Source of the DNA: Candidatus Gottesmanbacteria bacterium
GTDB lineage: Bacteria; Patescibacteriota; Microgenomatia; UBA10105; UBA927
DNA length: 48,223 nt
NCBI GenBank assembly: GCA_023245335.1
Contig: JAHFKK010000001.1
Span: forward strand, 747,282 to 795,504
Direction of reading: 5' to 3'
The translations under genes and the position numbers were made by a program. Below are positions 3,385 to 41,243 of the stretch, in pieces (within the stretch, counting starts at the first letter, position 1; every line of letters starts with the position of its first letter). The notes beneath the pieces are model-generated. The model had not been told where the DNA came from, searched no databases, and was given only the letters and a program-made list of their open reading frames with translations.

Positions 3385-4278
3385 TCAGGTCGTCGGTAGG
3401 TATGTGTCAGCCTGCCACCGGGCAAAAATACCGTTCGGTAGTAATTTACCAGCAGTACTGTCTTTGAGGGCCAGTTCGCCGGCTTCGGTCATTCCACCGG
3501 ATCGTTTCATGAGATCATCGAGGAGTCGGGAAAGCGCGATGGAGGAAACGTCCGCGGTGTACGCATTGAGAAGAAAAAACGATGGCTTAGGCGACAGTAT
3601 ATGCGTACAAGCAGATAAAAGTTTGGGTAAATCATCTTCGAGTTTCCAGATTTCGCCTTTGGCGCCCCGTCCGAATCTCGGTGGGTCCATAATGATGCCG
3701 TCATAGGTGACACCTCTTCGTGCCTCCCGGAGGACGAATTTATACGCATCATCCAGAATCCAGCGGATCGGCCGGTCAGAAAGATGAGACGCTTCTGCAT
3801 TTTCTTTCGCCCAGGAGAGTGAGGGTTTGCTTGCGTCGACATGGGTGACTCGTGCGCCTGCTCCTGCAGCAGCAAGAGTAGCTGCGCCGGTATAGGCAAA
3901 AAGATTGAGGACATTAATGGGTTTGCCGGCCACCCGTTCGGTAATCCAGCGCCAATTGGGTGCCTGTTCGGGAAACACACCGACGTGCTTAAACGCAGTG
4001 GGCTTAAGGACGAGCGTGAGCTGATCATGCCGTATGTGCCAGAGAGGCGGAGGGGGGCGGCGGATAACCCAGTTTCCCGATGTCTCATTGACCCGTACGT
4101 ATGCCGCATCCGCAGCATCCCAGACATTTGTGTCAGCGTGCGGCTTCCACATGGCACGGGGATCAGGACGATTGAGGGTATAGTCAGCAAACCGTTCGAG
4201 TTTTTTGCCGTCGCCGGAGTCTATGAGTTCATAGTCCTTCCAGTCATCTGGAGTGAGTATCGGTATGGTGTTTGTCAT
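3385..4278 (-). CDS. Class I SAM-dependent methyltransferase, RlmI/RlmK-like
   Basis: 'INVLNLFAYTGAATLAAAGAGARVTHVDASKPSLSWAKENAEASHL...IMDPPRFGRG': SAM motif I and DPPR motif. Confidence 0.88.
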   Translation of the reverse strand: MTNTIPILTPDDWKDYELIDSGDGKKLERFADYTLNRPDPRAMWKPHADTNVWDAADAAYVRVNETSGNWVIRRPPPPLWHIRHDQLTLVLKPTAFKHVGVFPEQAPNWRWITERVAGKPINVLNLFAYTGAATLAAAGAGARVTHVDASKPSLSWAKENAEASHLSDRPIRWILDDAYKFVLREARRGVTYDGIIMDPPRFGRGAKGEIWKLEDDLPKLLSACTHILSPKPSFFLLNAYTADVSSIALSRLLDDLMKRSGGMTEAGELALKDSTAGKLLPNGIFARWQADTYLPTT

Positions 4279-13724: not shown

Positions 13725-14326
13725 AGAAACCTGTTACGTTTATTTACTTTGATATCGGTGGTGTGTTGCTCAGTTGGAGGGAGGGGCATATACGGGCAGC
13801 GAAGAAATACGGTGTGCCTCACGAAGCCGTCTCTCGCATCGTTGATGCGCATTGGGCGGCCGCATGCCGGGGAACCCTATCAAACGCTGATTATATGGCT
13901 ATGTTCGCAAAAGTGTTCGGCCTCAGGGATCCGTTGCCGGACCTCACTGATTTTTGGACGGACCACTACACTCCTATCCTAGAAACGCATACATTGGTCC
14001 ATGAACTAAAGGGGTCGTACCGAATCGGCTTATTAACAAACGCTGAGAACGGAGCCATGAAACATGCGACGAAAAAGGGTCTCCTTCCAGTGATTCCCTG
14101 GGCCTCAGTAGTGGACTCTTCTCAACTTGGGACCATAAAACCAGAAACAAAGATATATGAAATAGCAGAAAAAGCCGCCGGTGTCCCGCCGGAGGAAATA
14201 TTTTTTATTGACGATGTGCCTGAGTATGTCGAAATCGCCAAATCCCGCGGGTGGCAGGGGATGGTATTCGACACGAAAGACGTGGTAGGATCAATCAAAA
14301 TGTTAAGAATAATACTATGTGGATGA
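13721..14326 (+). CDS. HAD-superfamily hydrolase
   Basis: 'FIYFDIGGVLLSW...IGLLTNAENG...GTIKPETKIYEIAEKAAGVPPEEIFFIDDVPEYVEIAKSRGWQGMVF'. Confidence 0.9.
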   Translation: MKKPVTFIYFDIGGVLLSWREGHIRAAKKYGVPHEAVSRIVDAHWAAACRGTLSNADYMAMFAKVFGLRDPLPDLTDFWTDHYTPILETHTLVHELKGSYRIGLLTNAENGAMKHATKKGLLPVIPWASVVDSSQLGTIKPETKIYEIAEKAAGVPPEEIFFIDDVPEYVEIAKSRGWQGMVFDTKDVVGSIKMLRIILCG

Positions 14327-32850: not shown

Positions 32851-32936
32851 CGCCACCACGAAACATAGTGGAGTGGCAAGCACCCTTGGGGTACGCCACC
32901 ACGAAACATAGTGGAGTGGCAAGTACTCTTGGGGTG
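32851..32936 (+). repeat. Two tandem copies of a 43-bp hairpin repeat
   Basis: CGCCACCACGAAACATAGTGGAGTGGCAAG at 32851-32880 and 32894-32923 (30/30 identical), each followed by a CTTGGGGT-containing tail; internal inverted repeat GCCAC..CAC/GTG..GTGGC. Confidence 0.85.
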
Positions 32937-32984
32937 TCAACGGTGTCCGGACTATATTATAAAGTGGACTGGAAGATTATTATT

Positions 32985-33005
32985 GGGTCGGTAGCTCAGT
33001 GGTAG
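32985..33005 (+). repeat. tRNA-Lys 5' fragment (about 21-22 nt)
   Basis: GGGTCGGTAGCTCAGTGGTAG versus GGGTCGGTAGCTCAATGGTAG in the intact gene (1 mismatch). Confidence 0.75.
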
Positions 33006-33006
33006 A

Positions 33007-33026
33007 CCCGCCAGCTGGCGGGCTTT
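33007..33026 (+). terminator. Terminator-like perfect palindrome after the tRNA fragment
   Basis: CCCGCCAGCTGGCGGG followed by CTTTT. Confidence 0.5.
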
Positions 33027-33034
33027 TAGCGAGT

Positions 33035-33289
33035 ATGTTTACGGTGTATGTGATTGAAAGCAATTCTAGTAAGAAGCGTTACATCGGACAAACAGAAAAT
33101 TTAGAATTAAGATTAATTCAACATAAAGATCCAAAATTCGATAAACGTTCGTATACAAAATTGAATGGAACAAATTGGATATTAGTTTACAAAGAGACCT
33201 TTCAGACTAGAAAAGAAGCGATGAAGCGCGAACAGGAATTGAAGTCATATAGAGGAAGAGAGTTTATTAAACAACAACTGGGTCGGTAG
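33035..33289 (+). CDS. GIY-YIG domain nuclease
   Basis: 'MFTVYVIESNSSKKRYIGQTENLELRLIQHKDPKFD...'; its TAG stop (33287-33289) lies inside the tRNA-Lys gene. Confidence 0.9.
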   Translation: MFTVYVIESNSSKKRYIGQTENLELRLIQHKDPKFDKRSYTKLNGTNWILVYKETFQTRKEAMKREQELKSYRGREFIKQQLGR

Positions 33290-33351
33290 CTCAATGGTAG
33301 AGCAGCAGCCTTTTAAGCTGTTGGTTCAGGGTTCGAGCCCCTGCCGACTCA
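33280..33351 (+). tRNA. tRNA-Lys(UUU), intact; left attachment site of an integrated element
   Basis: GGGTCGGTAGCTCAATGGTAGAGCAGCAGCCTTTTAAGCTGTTGGTTCAGGGTTCGAGCCCCTGCCGACTCA; acceptor GGGTCGG/CCGACTC pairs; anticodon loop CTTTTAA. Confidence 0.95.
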
Positions 33352-33355
33352 CAAA
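33284..33355 (+). repeat. Direct repeat, left attachment site
   Basis: cggtagctcaaTggtagagcagcagcc...ctgccgactcacaaa. Confidence 0.9.
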
Positions 33356-33374
33356 TTGAAACACACCGCAATAC

Positions 33375-34355
33375 ATGCGGTTACAGATAGATACATGGTG
33401 TGATTTCTCACGATTTCTTCGGCTGGAGCGTGGGTTCGGGACAAAACCCCAGAGTTTCTCTGTATACCAAAGGCGTTTCAAGAAACTCGTGTCGTGGTTT
33501 CATAATAGGGATTTCACACGCCTCAACTTTCTAGTCTTCCTGGAAACAGAACAAGCACGAGGACTAAAGAATTCCTACCTCAATAACTTCATCAAGATGG
33601 CAAAACAGCTCAATAGATACTTCCACATACATGAGTTTGATGAATTTCGACTCTTACACGAGATAGACCCAGTACCGAAGGACATTCTACGGCCACAGGA
33701 TATACAAGCGATGGCTGATGTGCAGATTCCCTATCAATCGCAACAGGAAACCATAAATAACCGGCAAAAGGCACTTATTTTGCTTCTAGGAACCACAGGA
33801 TGCCGTATAGATGAGGCATTGAGCCTTACAATCGGTGATATACACGCTAGGCCTGCCTACATTGTGTTTAACGATACCAAGAATGGGGATAACAGAGTAG
33901 TACCAATATCTGAGGAGCTTCTTAACCTTATTTCAAAGCTCACAAGGAAGGGTAGTTACGTGTTTGAAAGTCGTTCTCGAGGCAAATTAACACAACAGGG
34001 TGCTGGTAGGGATATAAAAGAGCGTGCAAGGCTCTGTAATATCCCTATTCGGGTCTATCCACACCTGTTCCGACATAGTTACTGCACCGAAATGCTCAAT
34101 CAAGGCGTAGATTCCGTAGTATTAGCCAAAATAACAGGTCACAGGGACCCAAAAACCTTGATGACGTACTACCATCAAGATTTAAACGAGGCAATAAGTG
34201 TCACAAATATGCACCCGTTATTACGTCACGAAATGAATTGGGAACAAGAAAAGTCTTTAGTCAAGAATATCTACTATAAATTTTATAAAAATACTACACA
34301 TAATGTACATATTATCGAAACTAAAAATAGAATTGTTTTGGAACTAAGTACTTAA
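33375..34355 (+). CDS. Tyrosine recombinase/integrase
   Basis: 'LLGTTGCRIDEALSLTIGDI...VYPHLFRHSYCTEMLNQGVDSVVLAKITGHRDPKTLMTYYHQD': R, HxxR, H, Y catalytic set. Confidence 0.95.
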   Translation: MRLQIDTWCDFSRFLRLERGFGTKPQSFSVYQRRFKKLVSWFHNRDFTRLNFLVFLETEQARGLKNSYLNNFIKMAKQLNRYFHIHEFDEFRLLHEIDPVPKDILRPQDIQAMADVQIPYQSQQETINNRQKALILLLGTTGCRIDEALSLTIGDIHARPAYIVFNDTKNGDNRVVPISEELLNLISKLTRKGSYVFESRSRGKLTQQGAGRDIKERARLCNIPIRVYPHLFRHSYCTEMLNQGVDSVVLAKITGHRDPKTLMTYYHQDLNEAISVTNMHPLLRHEMNWEQEKSLVKNIYYKFYKNTTHNVHIIETKNRIVLELST

Positions 34356-34368
34356 GCTACTAAAAGCG

Positions 34369-34995
34369 TCAATAAACTATATGAGTCGCATGAGCTCTTG
34401 ATGGTTCCTTATCATGAATAAATTGTCTAACGTGTTCATGAAACGTGCGAAACGCTAAGGAGTGCGTAAAGAGCTTAAAAATATGAGCTTTACTAATAAT
34501 ATTTGTTGCAAAAACGCTTTTTATATCTACATTATGAGTGCTCCTATATATATTATTAAATTCAGCTTTAGGATCAGCAATTAATTCAGCTTTAGGAAAT
34601 TCTGGTAAACTTAATCCAGACACTGCATTAACAGCTTCTATATCGGAAATTAACCATGATTCTATATTCCGTTTAGGTGCAGCGATAATTATTGAACCTT
34701 GAGGGAATTTAACGTCGTTAAGCTCCCTTCGTAATTGTGAGCGTTGAGTTTGTGGTGATAAGTTATCACTATCAATAAAAATGATGATTAAATCTATATC
34801 TGGGTTTAAATCAAATTGTACATCAATTTGAGTGGGAACTTGTTTTATTAATTGACCTTTTCCATTGGGTTCAAATGAGTGATCAACAAATTCGATTGCA
34901 TGGTAACTGTAACATTCTTTAAAAATTCTTTGACAAAGCGCTTGATAAATAATTCGATCGAAAGAAAGAGTTTCAGCGAAAACGCATACTTTCAT
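34369..34995 (-). CDS. TOPRIM/DUF4276-like putative nuclease of a two-gene ATPase-nuclease cassette
   Basis: N-terminal 'KVCVFAE', 'DLIIIFIDSDN' (DxD), 'AAPKRNIESWLISDIEAVNAV' typical of TOPRIM/DUF4276-like proteins; 5-nt gap after the ATPase gene. Confidence 0.65.
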   Translation of the reverse strand: MKVCVFAETLSFDRIIYQALCQRIFKECYSYHAIEFVDHSFEPNGKGQLIKQVPTQIDVQFDLNPDIDLIIIFIDSDNLSPQTQRSQLRRELNDVKFPQGSIIIAAPKRNIESWLISDIEAVNAVSGLSLPEFPKAELIADPKAEFNNIYRSTHNVDIKSVFATNIISKAHIFKLFTHSLAFRTFHEHVRQFIHDKEPSRAHATHIVY

Positions 34996-35000
34996 GGTCC

Positions 35001-36161
35001 TTATTCAGTTTTATTAATACCAAGTTTATAAATATCTTCTAAAGTGCCAGTCAAAAATAGGTCCCCTAAATCTAAATCCTTATCTTTAGCTTTAGCCAGA
35101 TGCTCGTATATTTTTTTATTATTGACTGGTTTAGATATTTGTGTTTTTCCGTTATCTTTAAACATATACATAATATCTTTTTCCTGCACAAATTTAAGAA
35201 TAATAGGGCTATGAGTAGTAAATATAAATTGAGTTCCACCAGACTCTTTATCAGATAAATAATTCAAAAATTTCATTAATGCACGGATCCTCTTTGGATG
35301 CATAGAATTCTCTAGCTCATCTATAATAACGACTGATGGTTTAGGATCACCCAAAATGCTAGTTAATATACCTATTAATCTAAGGTTTCCGTCAGATGTT
35401 GAAAATACACTTAAAGGATTATTGTGTGAAATTTCCTTAAAGGTAATAAATAGGTTGCCTGCCTGATCTTCAACTGAAAGATTTTCTAGCCCCATAATTA
35501 ATTCTTTTGCTTCTCTTTCAATCTCAGAATAATTGTTAGGTCCAGTTGTTTTTAAGGAATATAAGCTTTCTGTTAAATTTTTATTGAGTCCTGGTCCTAT
35601 ATTTGACATTGAACCTGGGTTGCGTAATTTAGAAACATCAAAAATATCTATCTTCATTCTGCTGAGATACCGTTGAGTCTCCACGACTATTTTTGGTTGA
35701 GCTATAACTGATAATGCAATCTGACTATTAACCAATTGAACATTGCTCTGGGGGATTCCTTCTTCAGTGTTGATTATGATTTTATCTCCTTCTCGATAAA
35801 TGATTTGTTTGCTATTTTCAAGCACTTCTTTGCTAACAATAAAATTAAAATTACCACTCGGTTCGTTAATTTGTGTAATTTCAAGTAGATATTTAATATC
35901 AACACCATTGACATTAAACTCAAGTGTAATTGTGAACTTTGGATTTGTGGCATCATGGAAAAGTTCATTGTTAACCAATTCGAGTTCAATAAAAGCATCT
36001 TTAATTGATTTCTGTGCTGCTAGTAAAGATATAAGTTTAATTGCTTTTAATAAATTACTTTTTCCCACGCCGTTATTCCCAACAATAACTGCAAATTGGG
36101 GGATATTCATATCAAAATGATCAAAACTTTTAAAGTTATCGATGAAAATATGCTTCAACAT
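35001..36161 (-). CDS. OLD-like/AAA_15-21-type ATPase
   Basis: Walker A 'VGNNGVGKSNLLKAI', signature-like 'STSDGNLRLIGIL', Walker B 'SVVIIDELENSMHP', H-loop 'QFIFTTHSP'. Confidence 0.9.
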   Translation of the reverse strand: MLKHIFIDNFKSFDHFDMNIPQFAVIVGNNGVGKSNLLKAIKLISLLAAQKSIKDAFIELELVNNELFHDATNPKFTITLEFNVNGVDIKYLLEITQINEPSGNFNFIVSKEVLENSKQIIYREGDKIIINTEEGIPQSNVQLVNSQIALSVIAQPKIVVETQRYLSRMKIDIFDVSKLRNPGSMSNIGPGLNKNLTESLYSLKTTGPNNYSEIEREAKELIMGLENLSVEDQAGNLFITFKEISHNNPLSVFSTSDGNLRLIGILTSILGDPKPSVVIIDELENSMHPKRIRALMKFLNYLSDKESGGTQFIFTTHSPIILKFVQEKDIMYMFKDNGKTQISKPVNNKKIYEHLAKAKDKDLDLGDLFLTGTLEDIYKLGINKTE

Positions 36162-36354
36162 AGTGATTCAATATTATAACTTTATGGCTGAAAATACTAG
36201 AGTAGCTATGTCGCACAACCTCCATAATGCGACTTCCTTTTGAGGCTAACGTTTCTATAACAAGTAATGGATTACCCTATAATTTTGTACCGTAGCCTCA
36301 ATGACGGAATAAAGAGGATATAAAGAGGTATCCTTCGGATGGTATAATAGAAGT

Positions 36355-36591
36355 GTGCAAAATATACCTCCACCCTATGCAAAACATCTTGAATTTAGAG
36401 CTGTCATCAATACCGATGATAGAGTTGATTGGAAGCATATATTTTTATATTGCGAAAAACAAGAACCGAAACCGATATTTTGTGAATTACCGAATGAACT
36501 TCGAAGTAGAGTATTTAACTCTGGGACAGCTGGAGCTAGCGGAGTTGCTTACACGGCCGGGACAAGTCTGGCAAGCGGAACAGCAGCGTAG
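36355..36591 (+). CDS. Small hypothetical protein (low-complexity Gly/Ala/Ser tail)
   Basis: GTG start after TATAAT; VQNIPPPYAKHLEFRAVINTDDRVDWKHIFLYC...NSGTAGASGVAYTAGTSLASGTAA. The overlapping frame 36353-36661 is an alternative. Confidence 0.4.
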   Translation: MQNIPPPYAKHLEFRAVINTDDRVDWKHIFLYCEKQEPKPIFCELPNELRSRVFNSGTAGASGVAYTAGTSLASGTAA

Positions 36592-36617
36592 TTTATATTT
36601 ATCGGAAAGACTAGCCT

Positions 36618-37088
36618 TCAGGGTCTCATGTATGGTACCCACCAGTAAATTGCACCCATAATTTTAGGATTGATTAGAAATACCGTTAAAGCTATTAAGG
36701 AAGCTAGTATGGTAAATGGTAACGCCTTTATTTGTGCGTTAGTGTAATTATCCTCTTTGGCTTCTTTTGCCGCTCTCGCCCAATTAAAATAAATTGGAAT
36801 AAGAGAAGCGAGTACAGCAAAAATCCAAACAATGATACTAACCTTTTGGACTGATCTTGCTAAAAGTGTCCAATTTACGATAAAAGCGATATAAGCCAGA
36901 TAGACATATGCCTGGCCTAATATGGCTATTAGTGTTCCAAAGACAAATCTGATTTTGTTGTGTTGTCGTAGATCGCCAGCTATAAAAGCCCCGGGGACGC
37001 CAACGAGATTCAGAATTAATACTGCCAGATAGTCCGCCACAACCCCAACTATTATTAGAAAGATTATGGAAAAAAAAGTTTTATTCAT
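36618..37088 (-). CDS. Multi-TM hypothetical membrane protein
   Basis: MNKTFFSIIFLIIVGVVADYLAVLILNLVGVPGAFIAGD... four hydrophobic helices; ORF extends to 37190. Confidence 0.7.
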   Translation of the reverse strand: MNKTFFSIIFLIIVGVVADYLAVLILNLVGVPGAFIAGDLRQHNKIRFVFGTLIAILGQAYVYLAYIAFIVNWTLLARSVQKVSIIVWIFAVLASLIPIYFNWARAAKEAKEDNYTNAQIKALPFTILASLIALTVFLINPKIMGAIYWWVPYMRP

Positions 37089-37428
37089 ATTCTTGCATAA
37101 AAAGCTCCCCGCCAGCGAAGTCTTGCGACTGCTACCGCACTTTCGGGCGATAACATTGTGAGATGCTCTGACGAAGAGCTTGTTTCTCACAAGGCTCTAA
37201 TGCCATGCCCCTCATTTCTGATGGGTTTAGGCAACTATTTTAATTGTCACCGCTAGTATATCAGACATTTGAAATGCTGAATCGATCTTAAACCGACATG
37301 GATATCTTAAAACACTAAAATTATAGCACTGGGGCGAATACTCAGGTAAAACTATTTACCAAATAGCTTCATTTCGTTGTTTGGAGATTACAACATCGAT
37401 TGCTATCCTTACATTGTATAGGAGAATA

Positions 37429-37620
37429 ATGACAGACAGTACAATGTTTATCCCATTAGAACAGATTAAACCAAAATATATTCCGTTTAAGTGCGTTGTG
37501 TGCAACGGCTGGGGAACGGTGAGTAATAAACGTGTTACATGCCACGCTTGTGATGGTAAAGGATATCTTGAAGTGCCCGAACAGATAGAAAGAGAGAGCG
37601 AATATGGAGAACCAAAATAG
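37429..37620 (+). CDS. Small DnaJ-type zinc-knuckle protein
   Basis: 'CVVCNGWGTVSNKRVTCHACDGKGYLEVP': paired CxxCxGxG motifs. Confidence 0.8.
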   Translation: MTDSTMFIPLEQIKPKYIPFKCVVCNGWGTVSNKRVTCHACDGKGYLEVPEQIERESEYGEPK

Positions 37621-38203
37621 TTCGTTCATTATGCTAAAAAGAGATAGTCAGGAATACTTTTACTTGCTTGAGAGAAGGCCGACAGCATTCGCTCTCTTAA
37701 GTTTAATAGCTGTTAGAGCAAAACGTACGGTGAATCATCCTGATCAAAGCTTGCAAATTGGAGAGGCTTTTATCGGAGATCATCTAACATACGGAGTATC
37801 AGAACGGGAGTACAGAACTGATAAAAAATATTTAGAAAAATACGGTTTAGTGACGTTCAAAGGGACGAAGCTTGGCACTATAGCACGGCTTGTTAATGCG
37901 ATGATATTTGATATTAATCCAGAAATAGGGACGAACCTTGAGACGGATAAAAGACGACTAGTAGGCGAAATAACGACGACTAACAATAATGAGAAGAATG
38001 ACAAGAATGAAAATAAAAGAGGATCTTTTACTTTTACAAACAAAATTACTAAAGATCCTGATTACCAGAGGCTACAGGAACTTAAATATATGGGTGATGG
38101 TGCTTCCGTTATGAAGAAAATGGCCTTGGAGCAAGTATTGGCGAGTCGGTATCCCTTATGGAAGTATCAGCGTCAGTGGGACGAGGCCAAAAAGAATATA
38201 TGA
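37604..38203 (+). CDS. Winged-helix/replication-initiator-like protein
   Basis: 'ERRPTAFALLSLIAVRAKRTVN...LQIGEAFIGDHLTYGVSEREYRTDKKYLEKYGLVTFKGTKLGTIARLVN', resembling phage replisome-organiser wHTH domains; overlaps both neighbours. Confidence 0.55.
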   Translation: MENQNSSFIMLKRDSQEYFYLLERRPTAFALLSLIAVRAKRTVNHPDQSLQIGEAFIGDHLTYGVSEREYRTDKKYLEKYGLVTFKGTKLGTIARLVNAMIFDINPEIGTNLETDKRRLVGEITTTNNNEKNDKNENKRGSFTFTNKITKDPDYQRLQELKYMGDGASVMKKMALEQVLASRYPLWKYQRQWDEAKKNI

Positions 38204-38583
38204 ACGATATACAAAACGGTACAAATAAGCGTGATATTAAGCAGGAGTTAGCCATAGAAACCTGGAATAAGGTTAATGGCAATATATCACTTCTATGTCA
38301 GAAAATAGGAATAAATCGTAAAACTTTCTATTTATGGCTAAAAGATACGGAGTTCGAAAAGGCCATTAAAATAGAAGAACGGGGTTTAACTGACCAAATT
38401 CAGTCTAAATTAATTGCACAGGCTCTTAACGGTAATTTTGTAGCTATCAAGTTCTATTTGGAGCACAAACATCCAGAGTATTCTCCAAAAGCTACTTCAG
38501 TTGATATGGACCATCTACCCGCTCCGATTATGGGTGGTTCGTCCGTAGTTTCAATGGTAAGTCTAATAGATAAAAACACTTAG
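38200..38583 (+). CDS. phBC6A51/terminase-small-subunit-like HTH protein
   Basis: 'KVNGNISLLCQKIGINRKTFYLWLKDTEFEKAIKI...SKLIAQALNGNFVAIKFYLEHKHPEY'. Confidence 0.65.
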   Translation: MNDIQNGTNKRDIKQELAIETWNKVNGNISLLCQKIGINRKTFYLWLKDTEFEKAIKIEERGLTDQIQSKLIAQALNGNFVAIKFYLEHKHPEYSPKATSVDMDHLPAPIMGGSSVVSMVSLIDKNT

Positions 38584-38633
38584 TTATGCTACAGTAGTTT
38601 TTACGGTGTGATTAGAGTTTGAGCCCTTCTACC

Positions 38634-38705
38634 CGGTAGCTCAACGGTAGAGCAGCAGCCTTTTAAGCTGTTGGTTCAGGGTTCGAGCCCCTGCCGACTC
38701 ACAAA
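38634..38705 (+). repeat. Direct repeat, right attachment site (tRNA-Lys pseudo-copy)
   Basis: cggtagctcaaCggtagagcagcagcc...ctgccgactcacaaa; 5' acceptor strand TACCCGG no longer pairs with CCGACTC. Confidence 0.9.
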
Positions 38706-40604: not shown

Positions 40605-41243
40605 ATGACCAAAAAAGAAAAAGCTCTGGAGATATTAAAGAGACTTTCGGCCGCCAATCCCCATCCCAAGGTGGAACTTGATTACTCGACACCTTTTGAA
40701 CTCCTTGCGGCAACCATCCTTGCCGCGCAGGCGACTGATAAGATGGTAAACACTCTGACCCCAGCACTATTTAAAAAGTACCCGACGATTAAAGCTTTTT
40801 CCGAAGCGAAGTCGGAAGACGTAGACAAAATGGTGGGTAAAGTCCTTTTCCACACCAACAAAGCGAAAAACATCGTCGCTTCAGCGAAAATCATCATGGA
40901 GAAGCACGGAGGGCAGGTCCCGAAGACGATGGAGGAGCTGGATGCGTTACCGGGAGTAGCCCGGAAAACCGCAAACGTGGTTCTCGGCAGTGCATTTGGG
41001 ATCGCATCCGGCATTGTCATAGATACCCATGGCATACGGTTATCAAACCGCTTGGGCCTGACGACGGAAAAGGATCCGGTGAAAATCGAGGAAGATCTCA
41101 TGAAGCTCATCCCAAAGGACAAATGGATTATCTTTGGCCACTTGCTCACCCTTCACGGCCGTCATATATGTACCGCACGCCCGCATACGTGCGAAGGCTG
41201 TCCGCTTGGCGACCTCTGTCCGGAATACAAGAACAGTAACTAA
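40605..41243 (+). CDS. nth: Endonuclease III
   Basis: 'LPGVARKTANVVLGSAFGIASGIVIDTHGIRLSNRLGL' HhH-GPD; FeS cluster 'CTARPHTCEGCPLGDLCP'. Confidence 0.97.
   Translation: MTKKEKALEILKRLSAANPHPKVELDYSTPFELLAATILAAQATDKMVNTLTPALFKKYPTIKAFSEAKSEDVDKMVGKVLFHTNKAKNIVASAKIIMEKHGGQVPKTMEELDALPGVARKTANVVLGSAFGIASGIVIDTHGIRLSNRLGLTTEKDPVKIEEDLMKLIPKDKWIIFGHLLTLHGRHICTARPHTCEGCPLGDLCPEYKNSN

Follow-up and report, generated by a model that had tools for sequence, protein, structure and literature searches.

Among the best described phage satellites, the phage-inducible chromosomal islands (PICIs), including the Staphylococcus aureus pathogenicity islands (SaPIs), carry an integrase at attL, a replication module and accessory genes but no capsid genes, and some have terS (PMC6092414). 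The phage-inducible chromosomal minimalist islands (PICMIs) have an integrase and a minimal gene set in about 5-6 kb, and are defined by int, alpA and a DUF3987/DUF5906 primase next to fis (PMC10803314). Satellites of similar size carry the PARIS defence system as cargo (PMC10803314, PMC9122126). An open-access literature search returned no paper on phage satellites in bacteria of the candidate phyla radiation (CPR). Here we describe an element of 5.35 kb in a window of 48,223 nucleotides (the whole stretch of DNA analysed, whose positions are used throughout) from a Candidatus Gottesmanbacteria bacterium (assembly GCA_023245335.1, contig JAHFKK010000001.1, positions 747,282 to 795,504 of the forward strand), which is a CPR bacterium, probably of the Microgenomates type. 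It is best explained overall, with slightly better than even confidence, as a phage-derived integrative satellite-like element with defence cargo, and probably represents a known kind, the satellite-like integrative island, in a new host group.

Integration at tRNA-Lys(UUU)

The element is bounded by a 72-nt direct repeat (33284-33355 and 38634-38705; start-to-start spacing 5350) in which 71/72 positions are identical, as an initial annotation made from the letters alone had described; a repeat of this length at 99% identity is not due to chance. A tRNA-Lys(UUU) was called at both ends by ARAGORN and Rfam. The left copy is an intact tRNA (33280..33352, + strand) and together with the repeat forms an attL-like site. 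The attR-like repeat on the right (38634..38705, + strand) holds a tRNA-Lys copy lacking acceptor positions 1-4, the disrupted stem noted before: the tRNA model match starts only at position 5, and the fold without the outer acceptor pairs reaches -24.8 kcal/mol compared with -31.7 kcal/mol for the left copy. No tRNA-Lys-like DNA of equal quality was found elsewhere in the 1.55-Mb genome. The interior has a GC content of 36.6%, whereas none of the 151 flank windows of that length falls below 47.2% (mean 50.1%), bearing out the AT-rich interior first reported.

A tyrosine integrase of 326 aa (33375..34355, + strand; PF00589, 8e-28; phrog_216/phrog_1) adjoins the left tRNA and retains all of its catalytic motifs (R, K, HxxR, H and Y). 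Its ATG at 33375 lies 22 bp past the tRNA end, and not 24 bp as previously given. This anatomy places the integration at tRNA-Lys(UUU). Repeats with one intact tRNA, an intact adjoining recombinase and an empty site in a relative (G021, below) are what is expected of a tRNA-gene integrative element, so that the mini-island proposed in the initial annotation is almost certainly an integrated mobile element. An artefact of assembly or binning, in which unrelated DNA was joined via the tRNA repeat, might be suspected because the relatives in the collections are mostly metagenome-assembled genomes. However, the element sits within a 1.22-Mb contig of a genome that is 98% complete, and both of its flanks match relatives' DNA; such an artefact is therefore very improbable.

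We compared the site among the seven genomes of the genus, within a class of 374 genomes. A GIY-YIG gene precedes tRNA-Lys in G017, as it does here, and the nth gene (40605-41243 in the window) lies downstream of tRNA-Lys on the same strand in G020 and G021. The left neighbourhood of the first and the right neighbourhood of the other two thus show that both element flanks match the unoccupied arrangement. In G021 (L025) the site is empty and consists of tRNA-Lys, a 97-aa open reading frame (ORF) and nth with no integrase, which answers the synteny check suggested earlier. In G017, about 37 kb separate tRNA-Lys from nth, with a serine recombinase adjoining the tRNA and a ParB-methyltransferase, a terminase small subunit (TerS) and a terminase large subunit (TerL) in between. 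G020 has a 17-bp copy of the tRNA 3' end 77 bp downstream of tRNA-Lys. In addition, contigs C19 and C37 of G018 (L028 and L026) differ by an insertion of about 180 bp directly after tRNA-Lys, bounded by a copy of the tRNA 3' end, which looks like a polymorphism within the population at this dock. From the empty site of G021, the serine-recombinase island of G017 and the short duplications of G018 and G020, we conclude that the tRNA-Lys site is a hotspot. The integrase was absent from every congener searched. A search for relatives in which this gene set occupies this position but no repeats flank it likewise gave none.

An intact operon ending in a terminase small subunit

Three overlapping genes form a single operon that ends 50 bp before attR. 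The first encodes a zinc-ribbon protein of the CxxCxGxG type (63 aa; 37429..37620, + strand; PF00684, 3e-4, under the cut-off). The second encodes a winged helix-turn-helix (wHTH) protein of 199 aa (37604..38203, + strand; phrog_2514, 0.0045) that resembles replication initiators or helicase loaders. Its best match among phage proteins is gp71 of Vibrio phage 1.177.O (7e-18), whose gene is directly followed by one for a P-loop NTPase, which agrees with the replication-like role proposed before. Further relatives occur in CPR recombinase elements and in IMG/VR phages (L073/L074) with TerS, TerL and RusA-like genes, the last judged from similarity of sequence. Single-protein scans of IMG/VR and GTDB contigs gave no match for the wHTH protein or for the DUF4276 protein described below, and relatives were found by alignment-based search after these scans had failed. 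The wHTH protein had no match among plasmids, and the interior DNA had no DNA-level match to phages.

The last gene of the operon encodes a predicted TerS of 127 aa (38200..38583, + strand; phrog_24579, 3e-7), joined to the wHTH gene by an ATGA overlap and not followed by TerL. The family is present in 46/374 class genomes and on 29 IMG/VR contigs, and its ORF overlaps or abuts TerL in 25/29 other genomic loci examined. Because of these neighbours, the case that the protein is a real terminase subunit, called TerS-like in the initial annotation, is strong. The structural model has a helix-turn-helix (HTH) and a long helix; among solved folds, the phage protein phBC6A51 comes nearest, with a weak match (E 0.15), and TerS proteins are among the closest viral models. 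A weak resemblance of the HTH to AlpA was also seen (E 0.006).

The ORFs between the repeats gave no TerL, portal or capsid match, the lack of TerL and capsid having been stated from the outset, and the element is not a complete prophage. Of the profiles used, PF03354 is blind to CPR TerL and missed the TerL of G017 that was found with phrog_38. It could be argued that a temperate CPR phage at tRNA-Lys lost its structural genes and is now an immobile, defective prophage remnant, of which TerS, the integrase, some of the early module and a defence pair of the moron type are left. In agreement with this, phages or prophages with a terminase encode relatives of the integrase, the wHTH protein and TerS, no excisionase or repressor was recognised, and the element occurs once. 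However, the core ORFs are all intact with no pseudogenes or truncated genes within the element, the operon is single and overlapping, the repeats are nearly identical, and elements with TerS but without TerL recur independently. We therefore consider a remnant rather unlikely.

Relatives of the integrase

The integrase has relatives at 40% identity in G107 and G111, and others adjoin TerS-TerL with head or portal genes in CPR prophages (G116 and G147). The same integrase family is found at three loci that look like prophages (L061-L063). The G107 relative (L060) belongs to an element without capsid genes, at whose ends a stretch of 43 bp from the 5' half of tRNA-Phe, and not from its 3' end, is repeated (4176-4218 and 14110-14152). 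This element encodes the integrase, Xis, a zinc ribbon, Rep and a primase-helicase, and no terminase was recognised. Its zinc ribbon is homologous to the present one (3e-8) and likewise heads the replication operon, overlapping the Rep gene. It differs in having Rep with a primase-helicase, in duplicating the tRNA 5' half and in being without the present TerS family.

The G107 element, replicative but with no terminase recognised, fits a further explanation, in which the present element is a self-mobile integrative defence island, similar to integrative and mobilizable elements. Integrase and replication protein would suffice, the island would spread by transformation, conjugation or vesicles, and TerS would be a DNA-binding regulator with no part in packaging. 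The wHTH relatives in CPR recombinase elements with neither capsid nor terminase genes (L038-L042), of which some have a primase, point the same way. Nevertheless, the TerS family elsewhere is almost always accompanied by TerL, and no relaxase or conjugation gene was seen in the element, and we regard this explanation as unlikely. In three of these recombinase elements (L039, L041 and L042), the serine-recombinase reading frames cross a tRNA gene antisense near their 3' end, which suggests an attachment site inside the recombinase gene.

A putative defence pair

Between the integrase and the operon, two adjacent genes on the opposite strand encode a putative defence pair. The first product is an AAA_21 (OLD/AbiEii-like) ATPase of 386 aa (35001..36161, - strand; PF13304, 2e-34; AAA_21 score 120 bits), which matches the PADLOC profiles HEC-01A (2e-38) and AriA (9e-37) as well as PtuA and OLD ATPases in the PDB. 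Its partner B is a DUF4276 protein of 208 aa (34369..34995, - strand) with matches to PF14103 (2.5e-5, under the gathering score) and HEC-01B (3e-8, PADLOC). We take DUF4276 to be a putative TOPRIM-type nuclease; a single-sequence fold of the partner was unusable (pLDDT 38). With HEC-01A and HEC-01B matches side by side, the pair corresponds to the PADLOC candidate system HEC-01, and the ATPase-nuclease cassette of the initial annotation is upheld by these profiles. It is likely, judging by family, that the pair is defence cargo.

PARIS, like HEC-01 and the present pair, combines an AAA_21 ATPase with a small partner, and is recognised by AAA_15/AAA_21 plus DUF4435 (PMC9122126). PARIS proper was rejected since the partner here matches DUF4276 only and not DUF4435. 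The PARIS effector AriB cleaves tRNA-Lys(UUU) (PMC12409363), and a PARIS-like pair is here docked in the gene for the very tRNA that AriB targets; the partner families differ and this is a lead only.

Comparison with known satellites

The initial annotation had called the gene set PICI-like. This held for the integrase, the replication-like gene, TerS and the lack of capsid genes, and did not hold for the regulator and the primase. Like PICIs and SaPIs, the element has its integrase at attL, a replication-like gene and accessory genes, and a predicted TerS recalls the terS that some of them carry; it differs in its smaller size, its CPR host and the lack of an AlpA or Stl regulator and of Pri-Rep. 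PICI membership was ruled out because no AlpA or Stl/Rpr regulator was found beside the integrase, and the replication module consists only of the wHTH protein. The element is like PICMIs in size, in its integrase and minimal gene set and in a defence cargo recalling PARIS. It was nevertheless excluded from that family, as only int matched, with no alpA and no DUF3987/DUF5906 primase; moreover, it is located at tRNA-Lys, not fis, and has TerS.

As a phage-derived satellite-like element, it might operate as follows. The integrase would recombine attP with the tRNA gene, so that an intact tRNA is rebuilt on the left and a copy truncated at its 5' end remains on the right. While resident, the AAA_21 and DUF4276 pair, judging from its family, may defend the cell against competing phages. 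Infection by a suitable phage would trigger excision, the zinc-ribbon and wHTH proteins would initiate replication using the helicase and primase of host or phage, and TerS would tag the element DNA for packaging by that phage's TerL into its capsids, allowing exit as a satellite. We give packaging by a helper an even chance. The independent recurrence in CPR islands of a build with TerS and no TerL supports the satellite explanation.

Several observations weigh against it. No excisionase, AlpA, repressor or primase was recognised in the element with Pfam and PHROG profiles, and a search of the 374 class genomes and IMG/VR gave no further copy of the complete element. Excision, replication, defence and helper packaging are functions that we only infer. 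Three contigs of the same bin (C11, C16 and C17; L167-L170) are phage structural contigs with TerL matches, and could be helpers or misbinned. None of them has sequence in common with the element, and no helper was identified in the bin. C16 may be misbinned, as its capsid is similar to those of phages infecting Proteobacteria and Cyanobacteria. The TerL of C11 seems to hold an intein.

Terminase islands and LOOT RNA in CPR bacteria

We found a common CPR island composed of a ParB-methyltransferase, TerS, TerL and a serine recombinase, in many cases with an XRE regulator as well; it frequently lies close to a tRNA (L143-L159 and L020-L021). In the 17 islands examined, the ORFs after TerL are not arranged as in prophages, which have a portal-sized gene next; in L145, the ORFs checked beside the terminase gave no portal or capsid match. 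TerS and a recombinase without TerL were found in four CPR genomes (L139-L142) and on one IMG/VR contig (L114), and some of these elements carry defence-type genes (type I restriction-modification-like, an AAA_13 ATPase or an Eco57I methylase). The islands at L143-L159 and L139-L142 share with the present element the TerS family, frequent proximity to a tRNA, the lack of capsid genes seen near the terminase and, in some, a LOOT RNA. The present element differs in its size of about 5 kb, in having a tyrosine and not a serine recombinase and in lacking the ParB-methyltransferase, and is the only one of the set without TerL in which a wHTH replication gene occurs together with a tyrosine integrase.

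The LOOT RNA (RF03000; 37117-37233, - strand) is one of the features that the initial annotation did not list, together with the zinc-ribbon gene, a membrane-protein gene and, outside the left end, a GIY-YIG gene with a partial tRNA-Lys 5' copy. It matches the Rfam model over its full length (74.1 bits; gathering score 46.4), has a fold z-score of -3.9 and ends 28 nt before the start codon of the membrane-protein gene directly downstream (36618..37088, - strand; 156 aa, no family match), for which it would be the 5' leader. A further small ORF of 78 aa (36355..36591, + strand) had no match and may not be a gene.

Rfam identified further LOOT RNAs in L155 and L114, and a model built from these and the present RNA added L162 and L066 in a search of 78 loci (1.14 Mb). 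In L162 (G022) the RNA is 23 kb from TerS-TerL on one contig, and in L066 it adjoins a tyrosine integrase. As many of the 78 loci had been picked for TerS, we scanned IMG/VR separately with a LOOT sequence pattern. Among the 80 loci listed, at least two clear LOOT RNAs (L176 and L249) were found, both in islands with ParB-methyltransferase, TerS and TerL; L206 gave a marginal match (E 0.002) among the IMG/VR matches listed. In all seven clear cases, the RNA lies 18-67 nt upstream of a cargo gene and is co-directional with it. The cargo is membrane or secreted-type in 3/7 and nuclease-like in 4/7 (weak NucS_C or VRR_NUC matches, or homologous to these), and in one case (1/7) the RNA was on a contig without a terminase. 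LOOT RNA thus mostly tracks terminase islands in CPR mobile DNA, with seven clear cases, and the link seems to be new.

Taken together, these elements may belong to a so far undescribed CPR guild of minimal phage satellites that dock at tRNA genes with a recombinase and a single-family TerS without TerL, and carry defence and LOOT-led cargo, with LOOT RNA as a signature of terminase-bearing mobile islands. We put this forward tentatively, as a possibility that falls short of an even chance. The present 5.35-kb element is the smallest found here.

Small features beside the left end

Just outside the left end lies the GIY-YIG gene (32984-33289), whose ORF stop falls inside tRNA-Lys. A 22-nt copy of the tRNA-Lys 5' end precedes it, both here and in G014, and a tandem 42-nt repeat (two copies, 95%; 32851-32935) lies to its left. 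GIY-YIG genes are found no more than about 50 bp upstream of a same-strand tRNA in 5/8 cases in this genome (Pro, Ser, Gly, Lys and Ser), and the loci considered, besides that at tRNA-Lys, include L042 6597-6967, L024 8686-8986, L051-L054 and L058. This unit of about 300 bp has the look of a mini-element that enters at the 5' side of tRNA genes and restores them; the literature search found no paper on a GIY-YIG mini-element beside tRNA genes.

Implications

With its link to terminase islands, LOOT RNA, an already described family of obscure function, gains a context that can be tested. If the satellite explanation is true, islands with TerS and without TerL would be a searchable marker. If real, such satellites would influence how even ultra-small bacteria that depend on a host resist phages.

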